The translations under genes were made by a program, and so were the position numbers. From Hydrogenophaga sp. IBVHS1 (lineage in GTDB: Bacteria > Pseudomonadota > Gammaproteobacteria > Burkholderiales > Burkholderiaceae_C): 64,000 bases of DNA. The stretch spans positions 1,240,001-1,304,000 of the forward strand of contig NZ_NFUU01000001.1 in the NCBI RefSeq assembly GCF_002127265.1, read 5' to 3'. Each line of letters opens with the position of its first letter. Within the stretch, counting starts at the first letter, position 1. This document shows, one piece after another, positions 28,615-35,547 of this stretch. Below the pieces are notes generated by a model. That model was not told where the DNA came from. It was given only the letters and a program-made list of their open reading frames with translations, and did no database searches.

Positions 28615-28691
28615 GGTGGCTGTAGCTCAGTTGGTAGAGTCCAGGATTGTGATTCCTGTTGTCGTGGGTTCGAGCCCCATCAGCCACCCCA
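28615..28691 (+). tRNA. tRNA-His (anticodon GTG), integration target
   Basis: Cloverleaf with the extra 5' G of tRNA-His (28615), acceptor GTGGCTG pairing with CAGCCAC, discriminator C and an encoded CCA. The anticodon loop TTGTGAT gives anticodon GTG, and the T arm contains GGGTTCGAGCCCC. The last 50 bases (28642-28691) are repeated exactly at 35498-35547, so a mobile element has inserted here while rebuilding an intact tRNA. Confidence 0.96.
28642..28691 (+). repeat. attL: 50-bp direct repeat inside tRNA-His
   Basis: The left copy of the perfect 50-bp direct repeat runs from the anticodon stem of tRNA-His to its CCA. The bases flanking each copy differ, so the identity is exactly bounded. 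The partner is at 35498-35547. Tyrosine integrases commonly use the anticodon-to-T-arm half of a tRNA as attachment core. Confidence 0.93.
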
Positions 28692-28704
28692 TATAAACAC
28701 TGAG

Positions 28705-28740
28705 AAGCCTGCTATCGAATCGGTAGCAGGCTTTTTCTTT
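28705..28740 (+). terminator. Element-borne terminator behind tRNA-His
   Basis: Stem AAGCCTGCTA (28705-28714) and TAGCAGGCTT (28724-28733), with further weak pairing inside the loop, then TTTTTCTTTT. It replaces the original tRNA-His terminator, which is now beyond attR at 35559-35587. Confidence 0.88.
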
Positions 28741-28749
28741 TGGTGTTGC

Positions 28750-28771
28750 CTGTAGGCAATCTGTAGGCAGA
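28750..28771 (+). repeat. Arm-type integrase-site candidate, left copy
   Basis: A 22-base sequence containing two tandem CTGTAGGCA units 11 bases apart, identical to 35362-35383 and in the same orientation. It is 58 bases inside attL. Paired arm sites near both ends are expected for lambda-type integrases. Confidence 0.65.
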
Positions 28772-29075
28772 CGCGCCGGTTCCGGGTGCTTCGAGGTGTG
28801 GGTGCTGGCTCGTGGTGCGCAGGTGCAGTGCTCGCGCATCCTGCTCGGGACTGACGCGCTCAAACCGCACCGCCGCGCCGCAGAAGAAAAGATTTCCCGA
28901 GCCCGGGGCTGCTTCGATCCGGCAGAATCGAATAGAGGGGGTGTACCGCCCCAGCCGGCGCGTTACGGAAGTCGAGCAGGAGGTGGCGCGCCGGTCCTGA
29001 AAAATTTTTGAATTGCCAGACCCAGTGGCCCAGAAAATTCTAAAAATTTTCAGACAACAAAGGAAGCCATCGCAC

Positions 29076-29576
29076 GTGAACACCATCAGCCTCGCACTGC
29101 TCCTGCTCTGCTTATTGGCCTCGCCGAGCGCGCGGGCCGATGAGTGTGCGTTTCTCCCAAAGGGAGACCCGAAAATCGCTGATCTCGCGGACTCTGTGGA
29201 CTACCTTGAATGTCGAGCGTTGACCGACAAAACTCGGAACGAAGGTAAGCCGTTGACGGTACATCAGCTTGAGCAGATTCGTATGGAGTTCGAATCCGAC
29301 AAAACCTACAAAGACACCATCTGGATGCGTTTGAGGTTGGCAACACTAAACAAGAAAATCGACTGCATGATTGCAAGCGGCAGGATCGAGGAATGCCACT
29401 GTTTGGCAGAGCGCCTGCCAGTACAGGTTGCGTTTGTGGATTACCTTCGGATCATCACGTCTGCTCCTGGCCTCGATTCCGCGCAGTTCGGACTCAGCCA
29501 GACTGACTTTTCGAGGCTCAGCGGAATGGTGTGGAGCGTCCGCGATCAATGCCTTGCTACCCAGCGGATCAAATGA
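29076..29576 (+). CDS. Hypothetical secreted protein, element cargo 1
   Basis: A 166-residue protein I do not recognise. The N-terminus (NTISLALLLLCLLASPSARA before DECAFL) is a clear Sec signal peptide, so the product is probably periplasmic. The mature part has cysteines in DECAF, YLECRA, KIDCMI, EECHCL and DQCLA, consistent with disulfides. The start is GTG at 29076 with AGGAAG 9 bases upstream. G+C is visibly lower than in the host genes on either side, which fits recent transfer. It is followed after 10 bases by cargo 2, so they are probably one transcript. A role in phage or envelope interaction is only a guess. Confidence 0.7.
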   Translation: MNTISLALLLLCLLASPSARADECAFLPKGDPKIADLADSVDYLECRALTDKTRNEGKPLTVHQLEQIRMEFESDKTYKDTIWMRLRLATLNKKIDCMIASGRIEECHCLAERLPVQVAFVDYLRIITSAPGLDSAQFGLSQTDFSRLSGMVWSVRDQCLATQRIK

Positions 29577-29586
29577 AAGAGGATCT

Positions 29587-30048
29587 ATGTTTAATGAGCT
29601 GATCGTCGCGTCTCAGAGCGTCCAAGCCTTGACCTCGCTTCTGAAGGCTGCGAACTCACTGGCGAATTACAACGAGATCGTGGCGGCGGTTTCAGACGTC
29701 AACGTCAAGCTGATGCAGTCGAACGCTGCAGCGCTCGAAGCGCAGCAGACCATGTCTCAACAAAGCTCGCGGATCGCTGAACTGGAGAAGCAAGTCGAAG
29801 CGTTCGAAGAATGGGGCGAGGAAGCAAAGGCGTATGGAGTTGTCGAAGTTGCACATGGAGTGTTTGCTGCTGTTCCTCATGAGCGTGCAGGTAACCTTCA
29901 AGCGACGCAGAAACTGTGCCTGAATTGTTTCAATCAGCGGACCAAGTCCATCCTTCAACAGTCGCACGAGGACCGGCGGGAGATCGGACTCGCATGTCAC
30001 CGTTGCAAAGCCAAAGTGGTCTTTCGCTATTACGTTGACGCGGTTTGA
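29587..30048 (+). CDS. Coiled-coil plus zinc-ribbon prophage-type protein, element cargo 2
   Basis: A 153-residue protein. Residues about 1-80 form an amphipathic helix and coiled coil (VNVKLMQSNAAALEAQQTM, then SRIAELEKQVEAFEEW). The C-terminal third is a zinc ribbon with two CxxC pairs (CLNCFNQ and CHRCKAK) around KSILQQ. Proteins with this layout occur as small hypothetical genes in many prophages; no function is established that I know of. The ATG at 29587 has an AGAGGA ribosome-binding site. It is a lower-G+C gene in the same unit as the secreted protein upstream. Confidence 0.75.
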   Translation: MFNELIVASQSVQALTSLLKAANSLANYNEIVAAVSDVNVKLMQSNAAALEAQQTMSQQSSRIAELEKQVEAFEEWGEEAKAYGVVEVAHGVFAAVPHERAGNLQATQKLCLNCFNQRTKSILQQSHEDRREIGLACHRCKAKVVFRYYVDAV

Positions 30049-30113
30049 AGTCGTGCCGCTGATTCATCCCCTCGCGCGCGCATGGTAGTTCTGTCGCATC
30101 TGCGCGAAGTAGT

Positions 30114-30126
30114 AACCCATTGGGTT
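30114..30126. promoter_or_regulatory. ACCCA-N-TGGGT palindrome, left copy
   Basis: A perfect inverted repeat, AACCCA-T-TGGGTT, between the convergent cargo and replication genes. The same ACCCA-N-TGGGT core is part of the palindrome at 35421-35435 before the integrase gene. It may be a binding site for an element-encoded HTH protein. Confidence 0.4.
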
Positions 30127-30149
30127 TGATAAATCCTAGTGCTGGGCAT

Positions 30150-30244
30150 GTGCATGTGTGCACCCCCTATAGGGTGGTGCACTGCACGCACACTTTTTTG
30201 CCCTTTGTGCGCACAGTGCATGCACATGAATGCACCGCTTGCAC
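30150..30244. other. Putative replication origin with TGCAC/GTGCA iterons
   Basis: In 95 bases there are at least eight TGCAC or GTGCA pentamers (30150, 30158, 30177, 30183, 30216, 30221, 30231, 30240). They include an inverted pair GTGCACC...GGTGCAC around CCCTATAGGG (30158-30182), a GTGCATGCAC palindrome (30216-30225) and an A/T-rich TTTTTT tract between them. The cluster abuts the 3' end of the replication gene. Satellite and plasmid origins are often repeat clusters bound by the adjacent initiator; the function here is inferred. Confidence 0.6.
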
Positions 30245-30248
30245 CTGA

Positions 30249-32237
30249 CTAGACGCCTGTGGAACCTGCAGCAGTTGCCTTCTCGAACTGCAAAACGGGA
30301 AAGAGGTTGCCCGGGTAAATGATCCCTTCAACGCTGGTCAGCGTTCCTGCATCGATGAGACGATCGACGCTGCGCGTGACGGTCGTTCGATTGAACTCAA
30401 GTTCCAAGCTCTTCACGAGGTCCTTTTTCATGATCCCGTTTGGATGCCCTCGCATGACCCTGACCACGGCCAGCGCTCCATCTGGCAGGGGCTTGCCTTG
30501 CTGCTTCTTTGGGGCCGCAGTAGGTTGCACAACACACGAGGTGACCGGCGCCCCCCACTTGCTTTGACCTAGCGTGAGGGTCTGCAGCCTGAACCCGCAG
30601 CGCTGTCCCTTGGTGGGCAGGTCCCGCTGCTTGGTGACCTCGAAGCATCTGCCGGCAGGCGTGTCCGTTACCTCAATCTCAGTGTCCACAGCGGCGCGGA
30701 TGCCCGACCATCCTCGGGCGCCCTTGCTCTGATCCTTGCCGCCGTGGTGGATCAGTGCGACATGCGCCCCGCATTCGGTTCGGATGCGGTCGATTCGACG
30801 CACCACCAGCCCCATGTCTTGACCCGCATTCTCGTTGGCACCAGCGCTCAGGCGCGATAGGGTGTCGCCGATGATGAGCCTGCATCGTTGCCCAGTCTGT
30901 TCCTCCAGGTCCCTTACCGCTCGGACGATGGCGTCCGTGTCCGCGTCCCCGTCGAACAGGTCAATCGGGTCCTGCACGATGGCGAAATGGGGCACCCGCA
31001 CGCCGTGGTGCAGCTGATAGGCCTGCACCCGACTGCGCACCGATGATGGGCTCTCGGCCGCGAGATAGACCACGAGGCCCGGCTCCGTTTGTCTTCCCAT
31101 CCAAGGAACGCCGCGAGCCACTGCACAAGCCGCATCGAGCAGCACGAAAGTTTTTCCCGCGTTGCTGTCGCCGTACCAAAGGGAGGAGTCCCCCAAGGTC
31201 AGCAGTCCTTGGATCAGTTCATCGGGCGGCTGGAAGGCCTCAGGAAGGGCATCCGCGAAGACGATCGACAGTGCATGCGGTAGTCGTTCATTCGACGGCG
31301 CCGCAGCGCTGGCGGTGAACATCTGCGAAACGTCAAGCGGTGGCCGAGTCCAGCCATAGCACTGCGCCAGATGGAAGATTGACGCCGGACCCACGGCGTT
31401 CTCTTTATCACTTTGGAAGCTGCCCCATTGCTGTGCGACTGCCTTGTCGCCGGGGTACTTGCTCGGATCGCCAGCGCTCCAGGCGCGCCACATCTCATGG
31501 GCTCGTTCCACCTGTCCGGTTGCTTCGCCTTGGGCCTTCAACGCGAATCCGGTGCGGACCCATTCGTCTCGGGAGCACGATGGGGGGATGGCACTGAGCG
31601 CACTGCTCAGGTCGTTCCAGTCTGCAGCGCCTATCCCAACGCGTGCCGCCGAGTGCGACACCACGGGCGAGTTTGTGCGACGGCGTAGCGGCTCGATACG
31701 CGCGCGAACGAAACCGGCAAGGCATACCGGCTCGCCGTGGCCCTCATCACCGGTAACGGTGAAAAAGCGGCGCCCGCTGTAGGCTTCGACGCCTGACCCG
31801 TCCGCGCCCATGTTGTCGATGCGTTCGCCGCGCCCGATGGCGTGCCATCCCTTTCCGCTGGGGCTGCGCTCCACATATCCGGGCAGATCGGGCACGAGGT
31901 GAGCCAATCCATTGGTATCCACCTTGTCGAGGTCAATTCCTTGCCATCCGTCACCCAGTGCAAAGCCCACGCCATCGAACCTCCCCGCCTGCAGCGCTGC
32001 GATCGCCTGCTCAAAGGTTCCCATGTGTTCTAGGTCCTCTGGCGAGTCGAGAGTCCCGGAACGGGGAGCACCCGAAACATAGAAAGGCTTTTTTGCACGG
32101 TGCAGCAGCCAGCGCTTTGCGTTTCTCATCGCTTCCGGGACATTGCGCATCAGGCGTTGCGCAAGTGTGGTCTCGAATGGGGCGCCTGAAAGCCATAGGG
32201 GCAGCGAGGTTGTCGAGTCTGAGGAATGGGTGCTCAT
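30249..32237 (-). CDS. Primase-polymerase/helicase replication protein (PriCT_2 and RecA-like ATPase)
   Basis: A 662-residue multi-domain replication protein. The N-terminal third resembles archaeo-eukaryotic primase-polymerases, with the catalytic acidic pair in GIDLDKV (near residue 100) and the SGKGWHAIGRGE segment. A PriCT_2-like helical domain follows (SALSAIPPSCSRDEWVRTGFALKA). Then comes a RecA/RepA-type ATPase with Walker A GDSNAGKTFV (near residue 355), Walker B CRLIIGDTLS and LIHHGGKD. A winged-helix-like end (IMKKDLVKSLELEFNRTTVTRSVDRLIDAGTL) may bind origin DNA. The start at 32237 overlaps the previous stop as ATGA; the longer frame upstream is inside that gene. Comparable in plan to P4 alpha-type initiators. 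Confidence 0.85.
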   Translation of the reverse strand: MSTHSSDSTTSLPLWLSGAPFETTLAQRLMRNVPEAMRNAKRWLLHRAKKPFYVSGAPRSGTLDSPEDLEHMGTFEQAIAALQAGRFDGVGFALGDGWQGIDLDKVDTNGLAHLVPDLPGYVERSPSGKGWHAIGRGERIDNMGADGSGVEAYSGRRFFTVTGDEGHGEPVCLAGFVRARIEPLRRRTNSPVVSHSAARVGIGAADWNDLSSALSAIPPSCSRDEWVRTGFALKAQGEATGQVERAHEMWRAWSAGDPSKYPGDKAVAQQWGSFQSDKENAVGPASIFHLAQCYGWTRPPLDVSQMFTASAAAPSNERLPHALSIVFADALPEAFQPPDELIQGLLTLGDSSLWYGDSNAGKTFVLLDAACAVARGVPWMGRQTEPGLVVYLAAESPSSVRSRVQAYQLHHGVRVPHFAIVQDPIDLFDGDADTDAIVRAVRDLEEQTGQRCRLIIGDTLSRLSAGANENAGQDMGLVVRRIDRIRTECGAHVALIHHGGKDQSKGARGWSGIRAAVDTEIEVTDTPAGRCFEVTKQRDLPTKGQRCGFRLQTLTLGQSKWGAPVTSCVVQPTAAPKKQQGKPLPDGALAVVRVMRGHPNGIMKKDLVKSLELEFNRTTVTRSVDRLIDAGTLTSVEGIIYPGNLFPVLQFEKATAAGSTGV

Positions 32238-32941
32238 CGTTCGCCGCCTTCCACCAGCGTACTGAGGCGCCGAATAGCCGCCTCTGCGTTTCTCCCCACT
32301 GGTCTTGGGAATCCCAAAGCCCTCATGCTCAGGTAGAGGCGTGCGGTGTACTCTTCTCGCGCTGAAATGTCGCGCGGATCGAGAACCCTCTCGCACCCCG
32401 CCGGCCCGTCCAATAGAAAGCGACCCTCGATGAGGTAGCGACGGTCGATGCCCGATTCTTCGAGCAGGTGCTCGCGCTGCATGGCGCGGTCCAGTGAAGC
32501 GTGGTGCTTGGCATATCCGACCAAGGTGCCCGGCACAGTTGCCCAGTAGGCCCTTCCTGGCCTGCTTTGAACAGTTGTCAATTCAAACGCCATGCGCTCC
32601 AAGCGATCTCGGAATCGGTTGGCACCAGGGCTCGTGTAGCAGCGTTGCCCTCTGCGTTCTGTCTTTTTGAGGCAATGCGAGGCAAGGCGTTGAATGGCAG
32701 TGCGGGACCTCGTGCCGCGCAGTTCGCGCTCAAGCTCAGCATGGCGCTCGGCCCTTTTGAACGCATCCCATACTGCCCACTCCGCTGGCGACGCATGCAC
32801 GCCTGGGCAGTCGGGCTCGCGGTTTACAGAGGGGTTCCAATGTGGCACATTGAGGGTGTTTGGTGCTTTGGTATCTGCGCTCGGCCCGGTTGCACCCGGG
32901 CCGTTCGCTTTTGCGGGGCCTGTTCGTCGATGGTCGGTCAT
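32234..32941 (-). CDS. Hypothetical protein of the element's replication operon
   Basis: A 235-residue protein that I do not recognise. The first 50 residues are low-complexity (Pro, Gly, Thr, Ala). The rest is basic and mostly helical, with RFRDRLERMAFELTTVQSRPGRAYWATVPGTL in the middle and RLYLSMRALGFPRPVGRNAEAAIRRLSTLVEGG at the end. It is fused by ATGA overlaps to the AlpA-like gene before it (32938-32941) and the primpol gene after it (32234-32237), so it is translated with them. A replication or regulatory accessory role is inferred only from that. Confidence 0.7.
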   Translation of the reverse strand: MTDHRRTGPAKANGPGATGPSADTKAPNTLNVPHWNPSVNREPDCPGVHASPAEWAVWDAFKRAERHAELERELRGTRSRTAIQRLASHCLKKTERRGQRCYTSPGANRFRDRLERMAFELTTVQSRPGRAYWATVPGTLVGYAKHHASLDRAMQREHLLEESGIDRRYLIEGRFLLDGPAGCERVLDPRDISAREEYTARLYLSMRALGFPRPVGRNAEAAIRRLSTLVEGGER

Positions 32942-33147
32942 TGCACGACCCCCAAGACGCGGCGCAGGTCGGCCACAGGCCAAGCGAGGCGACCATTCAC
33001 GCGGATCGGGCGCACTGGACCATGCTCCCGACATGCCCACTCTCGAAGAGTCTGCGGCCGGCGGTTCAGGTAGTGGGCTGCGGCAGCAGTGTCCACAGCA
33101 GGTCGTGTGATCTGTTCAAGAGGTTGGAACTGTGTATCGGTCTTCAT
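32938..33147 (-). CDS. AlpA/excisionase-like helix-turn-helix protein
   Basis: A 69-residue DNA-binding protein. The core RPAVDTAAAAHYLNRRPQTLREWACREHGPVRPIRVNGRLAWPVADLRRVLGV is a MerR-like winged HTH of the kind found in AlpA and Xis proteins of prophages and islands. Such proteins direct excision and switch on integrase or replication genes. The ATG at 33147 starts MKTDTQFQ; a longer frame begins at 33177. It heads the replication operon and reads out of the repeat-rich control region, whose dyads are candidate binding sites. Its stop overlaps the next start. Confidence 0.75.
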   Translation of the reverse strand: MKTDTQFQPLEQITRPAVDTAAAAHYLNRRPQTLREWACREHGPVRPIRVNGRLAWPVADLRRVLGVVQ

Positions 33148-33284
33148 TGGGTGGCACCCTTTGTGATTGAGGAACAAGACCTCAATGTGTGGGTGCTACC
33201 AGTAGCAGGGGAAGTTAGTGGCGAGGCCTCAGGCATGGCCTGCTATTCACGCGCGAGGGTGCTACTCGTCGCAAGGTAGCACCT
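33148..33284. promoter_or_regulatory. Repeat-rich control region of the element
   Basis: The 137-base gap between the two minus-strand operons holds GGTGCTAC at 33192-33199 and 33258-33265 and its inverse GTAGCACC at 33276-33283 (forming a hairpin with 33258-33265). Also present are a TGCTA-CCAG-TAGCA dyad at 33195-33208 and the inverted repeat TTGAGG...CCTCAA at 33167-33185 next to the AlpA-like start. The hairpin arm abuts the stop of the upstream gene. It must contain the replication promoter, unless that gene is read through from the integrase operon. Confidence 0.6.
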
Positions 33285-33914
33285 TCACTTAGCACTTGGC
33301 CAAGGGGACCTAATTGCTGCTGTGACGCACCTCTTTTGGACGGTTCGCCGGGACACTCCCAAGTGTTCTGCAACCGCCACCTGAGTACACCCCTCGCTGA
33401 GCATGCGCTTGCCTTCTGCGATTTGTTCTGCGTTGAGCGCTTTCGGGGCTGGGGATGAGGACGTAAGCCCGCGCACCTTCTGAGAGTAGGTGAACCCGCC
33501 CGGCATCAGCCATGCGTCGAGTTCTGAAACCTTCACCAAATCAAGGTCGCGCACCTGCCGGTTCCGGTCGAGGCGTTGGCGCATTCCGCTGGGTCCAAAT
33601 GCTTCCGATCCTTTCAGCCGTTGTCGCTCTTCGGAGGTTGGCGCTTCAATTGGGAGCCGTGTGGCTCCATCGTAGGCGGCCAATGTCCCGGTTGCCCATG
33701 CTTCACACATTCTGAGGTGATATGCCTTCTGCTTGCTGTCATCCCCGTCGCTAAGTCTTGTGGCAGCATCTTGCATGGCCACAAATCCAGCGGACTCATG
33801 AGTCGCCAGGCGCGCGTTCAAGGCCTCAAAGAACCCGCCGGGTCGAAGTTTGCTGCGCTCCGAATGATGTTCGGCCATTGCTTCAAATTGAACTGGTGTT
33901 AGGTTGGATTTCAT
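33285..33914 (-). CDS. HTH protein co-translated with the integrase
   Basis: A 209-residue protein of unknown function. The N-terminal two thirds is helical and charged (LTPVQFEAMAEHHSERSKLRPGGFFEALNARLATHESAGF). The last 50 residues form a resolvase/Hin-like HTH: LNAEQIAEGKRMLSEGCTQVAVAEHLGVSRRTVQKR. The ATG (33914-33912) follows the integrase stop by one base, so the two are translated as a unit. This arrangement suggests a directionality or copy-control partner of the integrase, though that is inference. The stop lies beside a hairpin in the control region. Confidence 0.72.
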   Translation of the reverse strand: MKSNLTPVQFEAMAEHHSERSKLRPGGFFEALNARLATHESAGFVAMQDAATRLSDGDDSKQKAYHLRMCEAWATGTLAAYDGATRLPIEAPTSEERQRLKGSEAFGPSGMRQRLDRNRQVRDLDLVKVSELDAWLMPGGFTYSQKVRGLTSSSPAPKALNAEQIAEGKRMLSEGCTQVAVAEHLGVSRRTVQKRCVTAAIRSPWPSAK

Positions 33915-33915
33915 T

Positions 33916-35349
33916 TCAGGCCACCAGTTGAAGGGTTGCGGGTTCTGTCTTCGCCTTTGGCTCGAACTTCACCCCAGCTTGCGCAACCACCCATGTTTCG
34001 ATCCGTTCATGGTGCAGGCGCAGCAGGTCGAGTGGGCGGCGCTTGTAGTGCTTTTCTGCCGTCGCACTGGGCTTGTGACCTTGAATCTGTGCAACGACCC
34101 CAGCGGGAATTTCGAGCCACTCGGTGAGGCTGGCGAACGAGCGGCGCAGCCCGTGCAGCGTGAGACCTTCAAGGCCTGCCGCTTTGCAGGCCCGGGTGTG
34201 CGGCGTGTTGGGCTCCGAGATTCGCCCATCGGCGCTGCGGTTGATTACAGCGGCCGGCGTGGTGGCCTCGCCCTTACGAGCGCTCTTCGCGGCCCTTCGC
34301 TTGATGTTGTGCTCGCTCATGTCGAGGGCGTAGGCGCTCGAAAAAACCCACTCATTGCGACGGGGCAGGGCGCAGAGTAGGTGCTCGACGTAGGGGGTGA
34401 GCGGTATCTCTCGCGTCCCTTCGATCTTGTCCCGGATGCTGATGCCTTTCCATTGGAGGTTCACGTCTTCCCATCGCATCGAAAGAACTTCGCCGGGTCG
34501 TGCGCCGGTGAGGAGCATCACCTGCAGCGCGGCGGCAATGCACGGGTTCTGAATCTTGCTGACCTGCACGAACCATGCGGGCAACTGCTCGCGGGTCAGC
34601 ACATCGGACTTCACCCCCGGCCGGCCCAGCGCCTCGCGGGTTTTGCGCGTTTTGGCGGGATTCTGCTGGGGCAGGATGGCGGCGTATTGGGGGTGCTCGC
34701 CGCACCAAGTGAGAAACACGGTGAGCAGGCGCCATGCGAGTCGTGCAGATGATGCGCGGAACTTGCCCTCTGCGGCGGCCCAGCGCTCAATCGTGGCGCT
34801 GTCGATCTCGCTCAGCTTGAGGCGCATCAACGGGGCGAGGGGGCCGGGTTTCGTCTTCACTCCCTTCTTGGCTCCGCGCCGCTTGGACTGTTCTCCACCG
34901 GGGCGCGCCTTGTCGAGGTGGTCACGGTAGTGCAGGGCGCCCCAGAGCGGTTGCCGCTCGATTAGGTAGGCATCCCATGCCTCACCCACGGTTAGCCCCC
35001 CTGCGAGCGCATCAGCGGCTTCTGTGACCTGTTCGGCGGCTCTCTGGGCGTCCTGCTCGCGTTCTACCTCTCGCGGGTCTGTGCCAGCATCGAGCGCCAC
35101 TGCAAGCCGTCGAGCCTCAACCCGGGCCTGCTCGATGCCCCATGCCTTCACCTCTCCGATGGTGCGCCGGATGGTCTGGCCCCTGAGCCGCCCCTCGAAT
35201 GCATAAGTCTTGCGTCCGGTCGGAGTGACCCGCAGAAGTAGACCGGGTGCATCGGAGTCCCACAGGAAGGCTTGAGACCTGCCAGGAGGGCAAGTGAAGC
35301 CCTCGACACGGCCAGCGGTCAGGCGGGTTCTGCTCTTGGTTGAGGTCAT
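33916..35349 (-). CDS. Tyrosine-type site-specific integrase
   Basis: A 477-residue integrase of the DUF4102/P4-like family. The N-terminal domain (FLWDSDAPGLLLRVTPTGRKTYAFEGRLRGQTIRRTIG) binds arm sites and the middle SAM-like domain binds the core. The catalytic residues are visible: Arg in LLTGARPGEVLSMRW, His-x-x-Arg in LHGLRRSFASL, His in QGHKPSATAEKHY with the nucleophile Tyr at the end of that segment. The ATG at 35349 gives MTSTKSRTRLTAG; the frame opens earlier at 35436. It sits 149 bases from attR, the usual place for the integrase of a tRNA island. Confidence 0.94.
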   Translation of the reverse strand: MTSTKSRTRLTAGRVEGFTCPPGRSQAFLWDSDAPGLLLRVTPTGRKTYAFEGRLRGQTIRRTIGEVKAWGIEQARVEARRLAVALDAGTDPREVEREQDAQRAAEQVTEAADALAGGLTVGEAWDAYLIERQPLWGALHYRDHLDKARPGGEQSKRRGAKKGVKTKPGPLAPLMRLKLSEIDSATIERWAAAEGKFRASSARLAWRLLTVFLTWCGEHPQYAAILPQQNPAKTRKTREALGRPGVKSDVLTREQLPAWFVQVSKIQNPCIAAALQVMLLTGARPGEVLSMRWEDVNLQWKGISIRDKIEGTREIPLTPYVEHLLCALPRRNEWVFSSAYALDMSEHNIKRRAAKSARKGEATTPAAVINRSADGRISEPNTPHTRACKAAGLEGLTLHGLRRSFASLTEWLEIPAGVVAQIQGHKPSATAEKHYKRRPLDLLRLHHERIETWVVAQAGVKFEPKAKTEPATLQLVA

Positions 35350-35361
35350 GGGGCTTCCGAT

Positions 35362-35383
35362 CTGTAGGCAATCTGTAGGCAGA
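35362..35383 (+). repeat. Arm-type integrase-site candidate, right copy
   Basis: Identical over 22 bases to 28750-28771 and in the same orientation, with two tandem CTGTAGGCA units. It lies 13 bases upstream of the integrase start and 114 bases inside attR, so integrase binding here could also repress its own promoter. Confidence 0.65.
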
Positions 35384-35420
35384 TTCGACCGAAACAGCCG
35401 AATCGTAATCAACAACAGAA

Positions 35421-35435
35421 TGACCCAATGGGTCA
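35421..35435. promoter_or_regulatory. TGACCCA-A-TGGGTCA operator candidate before the integrase
   Basis: A perfect 7-bp inverted repeat with one central base. It lies about 14 bases downstream of a TATATA box (35455-35450 on the minus strand) that may be the integrase -10. Its core ACCCA-N-TGGGT recurs at 30114-30126, pointing to one element regulator acting at both sites. Confidence 0.5.
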
Positions 35436-35497
35436 CTAAGTCGTTGATTTATATAGATTGTATCGACAGTCCTCAACGGAAGCAAATACTAGTTTTG

Positions 35498-35547
35498 CAG
35501 GATTGTGATTCCTGTTGTCGTGGGTTCGAGCCCCATCAGCCACCCCA
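35498..35547 (+). repeat. attR: 3' tRNA-His fragment
   Basis: The right copy of the 50-bp direct repeat. It contains the 3' half of tRNA-His up to CCA but no 5' acceptor or D arm, so it is a tRNA fragment, not a second gene. Confidence 0.93.

Follow-up and report, generated by a model that had tools for sequence, protein, structure and literature searches.

A compact integrative element in a tRNA-His gene of Hydrogenophaga sp. IBVHS1, PICMI-like in plan, and a group of related tRNA islands

The window analyzed here (64,000 nucleotides of Hydrogenophaga sp. IBVHS1) carries a stand-alone integrative element of 6,856 bp inserted in a tRNA-His gene and flanked by a perfect 50-bp direct repeat. 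The element looks intact and is very likely mobile in design. Our preferred reading, to which we give a probability of about one half, is that of a minimal integrative hitchhiker of the phage-satellite type which resembles in plan the phage-inducible chromosomal minimalist islands (PICMIs), and which would be moved by phage packaging. Several lines of evidence favor it. The gene order is that of PICMIs, and all 31 closed elements of our sample are compact tRNA islands with an integrase and an AlpA homologue. Putative integrase arm sites match between the two ends in 19 of these 31, and the relative L122 shows an attP-like junction. Some of the closest primases lie beside phage genes, structural genes occur in the relatives L048 and L183, and the second cargo protein belongs to a phage family. 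Moreover, relatives carry restriction, SIR2/HerA and GmrSD-type proteins, and the window element has no recognizable relaxase.

Gene content and ends of the element

Integrase, HTH209 (a helix-turn-helix (HTH) protein), AlpA-like gene, U235 and primase-helicase follow each other on the minus strand, while two plus-strand cargo genes separate the primase gene from the tRNA. The tyrosine integrase (33916..35349, minus strand, 477 aa) includes the Arm-DNA-bind_3 and Phage_integrase domains, both above the Pfam cut-offs. Its residues R284, K308, H399, R402, H425 and Y435, which we take to be catalytic, are invariant in 14 homologues. The AlpA-like excisionase or regulator (32938..33147, minus strand, 69 aa) is a weak call by profiles alone (HTH_17 below cut-off; excisionase family phrog_66, E=1e-3), yet it is backed by a homologue in all 34 closed elements, 31 of them distinct, described below.

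The primase-helicase (30249..32237, minus strand, 663 aa) is a fusion of a primase-polymerase, PriCT_2 and a RepA-type helicase according to Pfam, PHROGs and phmmer. PriCT_2 and AAA_25 exceed the Pfam cut-off. Among solved chains, phmmer matches the N-terminal part to "Primase" (E=5e-7) and the C-terminal part to "Regulatory protein RepA" (E=3e-6), presumably the NrS-1 phage primase and RSF1010 RepA. The C-terminal half is nearest to L031 (66%), G262 (63%) and L146 (63%) and the N-terminal part to G082 (59%); the protein looks mosaic from these matches. Pfam, PHROGs, NCBIfam and PADLOC scans of the seven element proteins gave no convincing structural, lysis, packaging or transfer match and no relaxase, nor was any interference, packaging or capsid-sizing module recognized in the element. 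Weak matches are limited to HTH209 with the terminase small subunit phrog_57 (E=0.015, across its HTH), cargo 2 with the tail-fiber family phrog_1801 (E=0.097) and cargo 1 with TraN (E=0.0023, 15.8 bits for a cut-off of 603). An earlier sequence-only reading of the window had proposed a satellite-like element from the perfect repeats at tRNA-His, an integrase, an AlpA-like HTH, a primpol-helicase and the lack of structural, packaging, lysis or transfer genes. All these features are borne out.

ARAGORN places the tRNA-His gene (GTG) at 28616-28691 on the plus strand. The tRNA-side copy of the att core (28642..28691, plus strand) is the 3' part of this gene, which stays whole; the int-side copy lies at 35498..35547 (plus strand). 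The PpiD-tRNA-His neighborhood is present in other genomes of the genus too. The remaining direct repeats listed in an 8.5-kb stretch are imperfect and do not exceed 31 nt, with the exception of one perfect 22-nt pair, a tandem CTGTAGGCA with an 11-bp period. One copy (28750..28771, plus strand) is 58 bp from the core on the tRNA side; the other (35362..35383, plus strand) starts 13 bp upstream of the int start and is 114 bp from the core. We read them as putative paired arm-type integrase sites.

An iteron-like cluster of 10 TGCAC/GTGCA words in ~100 bp (30150..30245) lies behind the primase gene and is the presumed replication origin. It is the densest 200-bp stretch of the 64-kb window for this word, which was picked after inspection. 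In an unbiased hexamer test the top count of 4 equals the highest of 200 shuffles and is not above it. Among the stretches behind the replication gene in 15 relatives, 6 exceed all shuffles (L031, L032, L046, L047, L048 and L111), with commonest words that are different, or nearly so, each time, and 9 do not. Since the hexamer count in the window equals the maximum of the shuffles and 9 of 15 relatives stay within them, we infer the origin role rather than observe it.

Related tRNA islands and their replication slot

An alignment of 14 integrases, used to scan genomes, gave at least 565 loci, of which the best 80 were taken. Together with 17 further loci (partly repeating the 80) and the window, 98 loci were examined. 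Thirty-four close at a tRNA and represent 31 distinct elements, the window included, after removal of 3 duplicates; the other 64 did not close within the available stretch. The 31 elements measure 3,618 to 14,853 bp (median 8,338) and occupy tRNA-His (11), Met (6), Lys (6), Phe (4), Thr (3) and Ser (1) genes. All 31 include an AlpA homologue; among the 48 named loci for which over 4 kb of sequence beyond int was available, AlpA was found on the same strand within 8 kb in 42 and not in 6. Most often, int is followed by a few small genes, then by alpA, further small genes, the replication gene, cargo and the tRNA; there are exceptions, such as L086, where alpA is inverted. Hosts for which a genus is given are presumably all Burkholderiales, except one metagenome-assembled genome labeled Chitinophaga, and many are labeled just beta-, gamma- or proteobacterium. 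In 19 of the 31 elements a common string of 15 nt or longer (19 nt or longer in every case) is found at the two ends, compared to none of 155 control windows from inside the same elements, where the longest shared string is 12.

Gene counts in this family are minima: the gene caller missed alpA and HTH209 of the window and shortened U235. The family scans covered 148 of 179 non-integrase proteins of at least 100 aa, the window being left out and 10 other PrimPol-cluster primases and 21 short ones being dropped. The tallies cover 25 of 68 Pfam families, 25 of 151 PHROGs and 25 of 144 PADLOC families, and could hide single structural or transfer genes. A phmmer comparison, sensitive to near kin only, of 306 called proteins with 8 queries (terminase, portal, capsid and protease) recovered the capsid of L048 alone. 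The earlier proposal of a satellite or an orphan mini-element is supported as to the stand-alone nature of the element, which has 30 other closed elements of the same integrase/AlpA kind beside it, with one structural gene recovered among them.

Siblings are found in the genus itself. G359 carries a 7.9-kb element at the same tRNA (integrase 74%, AlpA 78%) with the same arm word and no PrimPol match. A decayed sibling at the same tRNA-His in G356 (L394:7556-9843) retains the left end (~90%) and primase fragments (94% and 78%), and has no integrase match. Its iteron-like cluster is well kept (3 of ~103 positions differ, by eye). A different 180-aa open reading frame (ORF) stands there in place of the two cargo genes of the window, and the cargo slot therefore differs as a unit. 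In G114, a 29-kb island at the same site carries an integrase (68%), an AlpA homologue, MmeI-like restriction and helicase genes, and a Mob_Pre-like 259-aa ORF near the tRNA. The tRNA-His query matches 40 of 40 genomes of the genus, 37 strongly, and a second core copy is among the listed matches in 6 of them (G000, G114, G314, G315, G322, where it is 126 kb away, and G324). The host has a second locus of the same plan (C1, ~784,900-795,000; L413:9902-20000) with an integrase at 39% and an AlpA at 66%, followed by a gene that resembles the L149 primase of D5 type at 32% and by large ORFs (1031 aa, 872 aa and further ones); no end of this locus was found.

The replication slot of the 31 elements holds PrimPol/RepA-type (14), MobV-type (6) or DnaB/D5/gpA-like (6) proteins, with none assigned in 5, these classes having been assigned by cluster, BLAST or Pfam match and resting on partial annotation. 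DnaB-like proteins are found in L090, L092 and L100, D5 in L149 and gpA-like proteins in L083 and L086 (by length only). Mob_Pre was shown singly for L103 and L142, the family tally being 6 members; the MobV-type protein of L087 is short and lies beside a transposase gene. All six proteins exhibit HNxR and HxDE..HxH, which we take to be MobV/Mob_Pre motifs. Mapped onto an integrase tree of 38 rows, the five classes require 18 changes, compared to 19.9 when shuffled (24 of 200 shuffles are as low), and seven changes are required for the seven MobV rows. For the PrimPol class the figures are 10 and 12.5 (51 of 500 as low), so a slight clustering of this class is possible. Two Acidovorax elements, L103 (MobV) and L106 (PrimPol), have integrases ~0.02 changes per column apart on the tree; what they share is att and int (94% over 1,549 bp), the end that adjoins the tRNA and some further short segments. 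Judged from these sequences, the replication slot is swapped under related integrases between PrimPol, DnaB or D5 modules and a MobV-type relaxase. A more tentative proposal, which we hold at less than even odds, is that of a single recombination chassis (tRNA att core, paired arm sites, matching integrase and usually AlpA) with an exchangeable interior, whose lineages would switch between phage-satellite and conjugation-mobilized lives when PrimPol, DnaB or D5 modules are exchanged for MobV.

The contig L122 (7,373 bp; integrase 58%, primase 33%) has 24-bp identical ends and is the only one of 30 whole contigs searched to show terminal repeats. Once closed to 7,349 bp, it contains one tRNA-Lys-type core with the two arms at the expected distances (58 bp and ~119 bp), and the closure is spanned by a 142-aa ORF that belongs to one of the family clusters. 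It can be a ring, a concatemer or a tandem array with a rebuilt attP; a single integrated copy would not give such ends. A doubled arm-like repeat was detected in 3 of 132 distinct int upstream regions (L122, L331 and L192). The viral-labeled contig of L331 carries, at L182:2164-13551, two AlpA copies and a doubled arm-like site, a possible tandem array of two islands.

Phages, conjugation and the rival explanations

In IMG/VR contigs, relatives of the primase-helicase lie near terminase and head-tail genes (L031) or near terminase and portal genes (L032). Other close primase-helicases, L045 and L146, sit in int-AlpA loci like that of the window. L048, a closed tRNA-Thr relative, includes an HK97-type capsid gene, the one structural gene found among the 31, and in L183 int (48%) and AlpA are followed by capsid, protease and portal genes. 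At least 120 stretches of viral-labeled IMG/VR contigs contain the att sequence of tRNA-His; of 120 such stretches, two have an integrase relative and one a primase relative. In related genomes the whole element was not found continuous with a complete prophage or a conjugation module, the finding that would have made it a remnant. This holds less well for its parts, given the primase-helicases beside terminase, portal and head-tail genes and the distant integrase and AlpA that precede the structural genes of L183.

Excerpts of PMC10803314 give the PICMI order as int, small gene, alpA, unknown gene, prim, accessory genes and target gene, the int-adjacent gene being needed for excision, AlpA acting as trigger and prim serving copy number. 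The window element shares with PICMIs, as described there, this order, a size of ~6-7 kb and the lack of a capsid-remodeling gene, and int, alpA (by homology) and prim are co-localized in it. The sequence-only reading could recall no named satellite family with such a gene order. The published order shows that one exists, although membership fails: the same excerpts report complete PICMIs only in Vibrio, at one site, with fis as the hallmark, and the element is consequently not a PICMI. It is inserted in tRNA-His rather than fis, and its primase is of the PriCT_2 and AAA_25/RepA type only, whereas that of PICMIs is DUF3987/DUF5906 (PF13148, PF19263) in the excerpts of PMC10803314. Moreover, its host is outside Vibrionaceae, any phage dependence is presumed and tight coupling of int to the next gene is no trait of its group (2 of 31). 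In gene content and order the element is thus PICMI-like in plan without being a PICMI.

Other named systems show partial likeness. Capsid-forming phage-inducible chromosomal islands (PICIs) carry their own capsid genes, P4 possesses the capsid and derepression genes Psu, Sid and delta, and integrative mobilizable elements with a MobV relaxase form a further kind. Psu, Sid and delta are not among the Pfam matches of the seven element proteins up to E=1. Capsid-forming PICIs, named in excerpts of PMC11389934, resemble the distant relatives L048 (capsid) and L183 (capsid, protease, portal) but not the window element, which has no capsid gene. As far as excerpts of PMC6092414 describe them, Gram-negative PICIs also have an integrase, an AlpA regulator and a replication module in a conserved organization and no structural or lytic genes; however, they measure 12-15 kb against 6,856 bp here. 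Their att sites are described as never occupied by prophages; the att sequence of the window also occurs in viral-labeled contigs, which may include prophages at this site. The tmRNA islands I23, I44 and I55, in the excerpts of PMC12595487, are likewise site-specific, with a tyrosine integrase, AlpA and no autonomous-transfer genes, and I55 is moved by a jumbo phage. They differ by their tmRNA target, larger size, alpA at the far end and other core genes (YqaJ, inovirus Gp2-like). No description of the present group was among the matches listed in searches of the open literature, subscription papers and bioRxiv being outside the scope, which is weak evidence of novelty.

Several observations weigh against a phage satellite. 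The integrases of L048 and L183 are only 39% and 48% like that of the window, and L183, truncated by the end of its contig, could be a prophage. The ring form was seen in a relative, where identical copies arrayed in tandem would give the same picture. Twelve of the 31 elements share just 8 to 13 nt between their ends. Neither a packaging gene nor a cos or pac site was shown for the element, and it has no nucleotide match to 50,697 phage records. Terminase phrog_2 and capsid PF05065 were absent from a scan of the host genome in which other phage families were not searched; as positive controls, phrog_2 matches 11 and PF05065 4 of 14 control genomes. The host does carry a VirB4 gene (C1, ~280,000-290,400; L416, L417; E=5.6e-44, matched to the solved TrwK/VirB4), whose neighbors suggest a VirB/VirD4 secretion system by their sizes and P-loops, and a MobV-type relaxase occupies the replication slot of 6 of the 31 elements.

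The latter two findings would fit an integrative mobilizable element without its own relaxase, in which a conjugative element would move the ring through an unseen oriT and the primase-helicase would only copy it. The six closed relatives with a MobV/Mob_Pre-like protein after alpA share the integrase and AlpA kinds of the window, the G114 island has a related 259-aa ORF, the VirB4 gene lies within an ORF run fitting a VirB/VirD4 set, and the Acidovorax pair combines closely similar integrases with MobV in one case and PrimPol in the other. However, the window element has no relaxase, its sole transfer-type match (cargo 1 to TraN) is far below cut-off and relatives of its replication module occur in phages; this explanation, the main rival, is rather unlikely. 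We consider improbable a cargo-bearing island which excises and copies itself with no dedicated helper and spreads by generalized transduction, vesicles or natural transformation. In its favor, no DNA is shared with any phage record, no helper signature was recognized and the cargo has no assigned use, but the int-alpA-replication order recurs in many hosts together with repeated module exchange, which suggests a specific and frequent route. Finally, the primase module occurs in phages and real remnants exist, such as that of G356, yet seven open genes, perfect att cores, matching arm sites and 30 other closed elements of the kind make it very improbable that the element is a prophage or an integrative and conjugative element reduced to its integration and replication genes.

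For the phage-satellite reading, the following cycle may be proposed. The integrase would bind the arm sites just before its own gene and therefore keep its own level low. A helper would switch on the alpA operon, and AlpA, perhaps with HTH209, would direct excision. The primase-helicase would copy the excised ring from the iterons. A helper phage that went undetected in the host genome would then package the DNA, probably in concatemeric form and within capsids left unaltered, since the element has no recognizable capsid-sizing gene. In a new cell, the ring would re-enter tRNA-His.

Putative regulatory regions, cargo, and meaning of the element

HTH209 (33285..33914, minus strand; Pfam, PHROGs and structure prediction) has a C-terminal HTH and is placed like the PICMI genes iolg/icg. 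It has no relative among 40,561 ORFs of the collected loci at E 1e-3, and a single tblastn match (55 residues, 42%, E=9e-4) in L098. In the single-sequence structure prediction (mean pLDDT 43.4) only the HTH (~residues 158-198) is confident. The overlapped gene order noted by the sequence-only reading stands for alpA/U235 and U235/primase (4-nt ATGA overlaps), but integrase and HTH209 do not overlap, the latter starting 1 nt after the int stop. Such coupling was rejected as a group trait: a start within 4 nt of the int stop is found in 2 of 31 elements (the window and L096), and in 7 of 31 no ORF of 80 aa starts within the tested range.

U235 (32234..32941, minus strand, 235 aa), studied by profile scans and homology, has one good relative in 299 family genomes, in G082, where it adjoins a related primase. 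A second match in G111 (E=1.9e-4) is interrupted by stops, and no relative was confirmed in the viral contigs searched. The mean pLDDT of its single-sequence structure prediction is 39.0. In G082 (L049:6476-11505), the U235 relative lies behind another integrase at tRNA-Ser, together with a primase whose N-terminal part is close to that of the window, and no AlpA match was found. Direct and inverted TGCTAC boxes upstream of alpA (33191..33276) are possible operators, as may be a 15-bp palindrome upstream of int (35421..35435, by eye). The palindrome resembles a site at 30105-30125 in the presumed origin, a possible shared operator. The element carries a terminator-like hairpin behind tRNA-His (28702..28736, plus strand; 9 such sites in the region against 6.7 expected). 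By eye, a second terminator-like stretch behind the int-side att copy differs from it and resembles that which immediately follows tRNA-His in several further genomes of the genus.

Cargo 1 (29076..29576, plus strand, 166 aa) has a signal-peptide-like start by eye, no convincing family and no relative in 249 other genomes searched. Cargo 2 (29587..30048, plus strand, 153 aa) belongs to phrog_1244 (E=6e-24) and looks coiled-coil or zinc-ribbon-like by eye. This family is found in 8 of 50,697 phage records and, in phage LPB1, is an opposite-strand gene adjoining the terminase gene. The cargo may serve against rival phages.

A similar plan recurs in other bacteria, at several different tRNA genes; the named hosts are mostly Burkholderiales. 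The arm sites, the iterons and the ring form would offer direct handles on excision and on the choice of helper. Fixed ends with a swappable replication or transfer core would amount to a natural experiment on which module decides the helper. If the tentative chassis proposal is true, the distinction between phage satellites and mobilizable elements would be one of state within a single element type, not one of kind.

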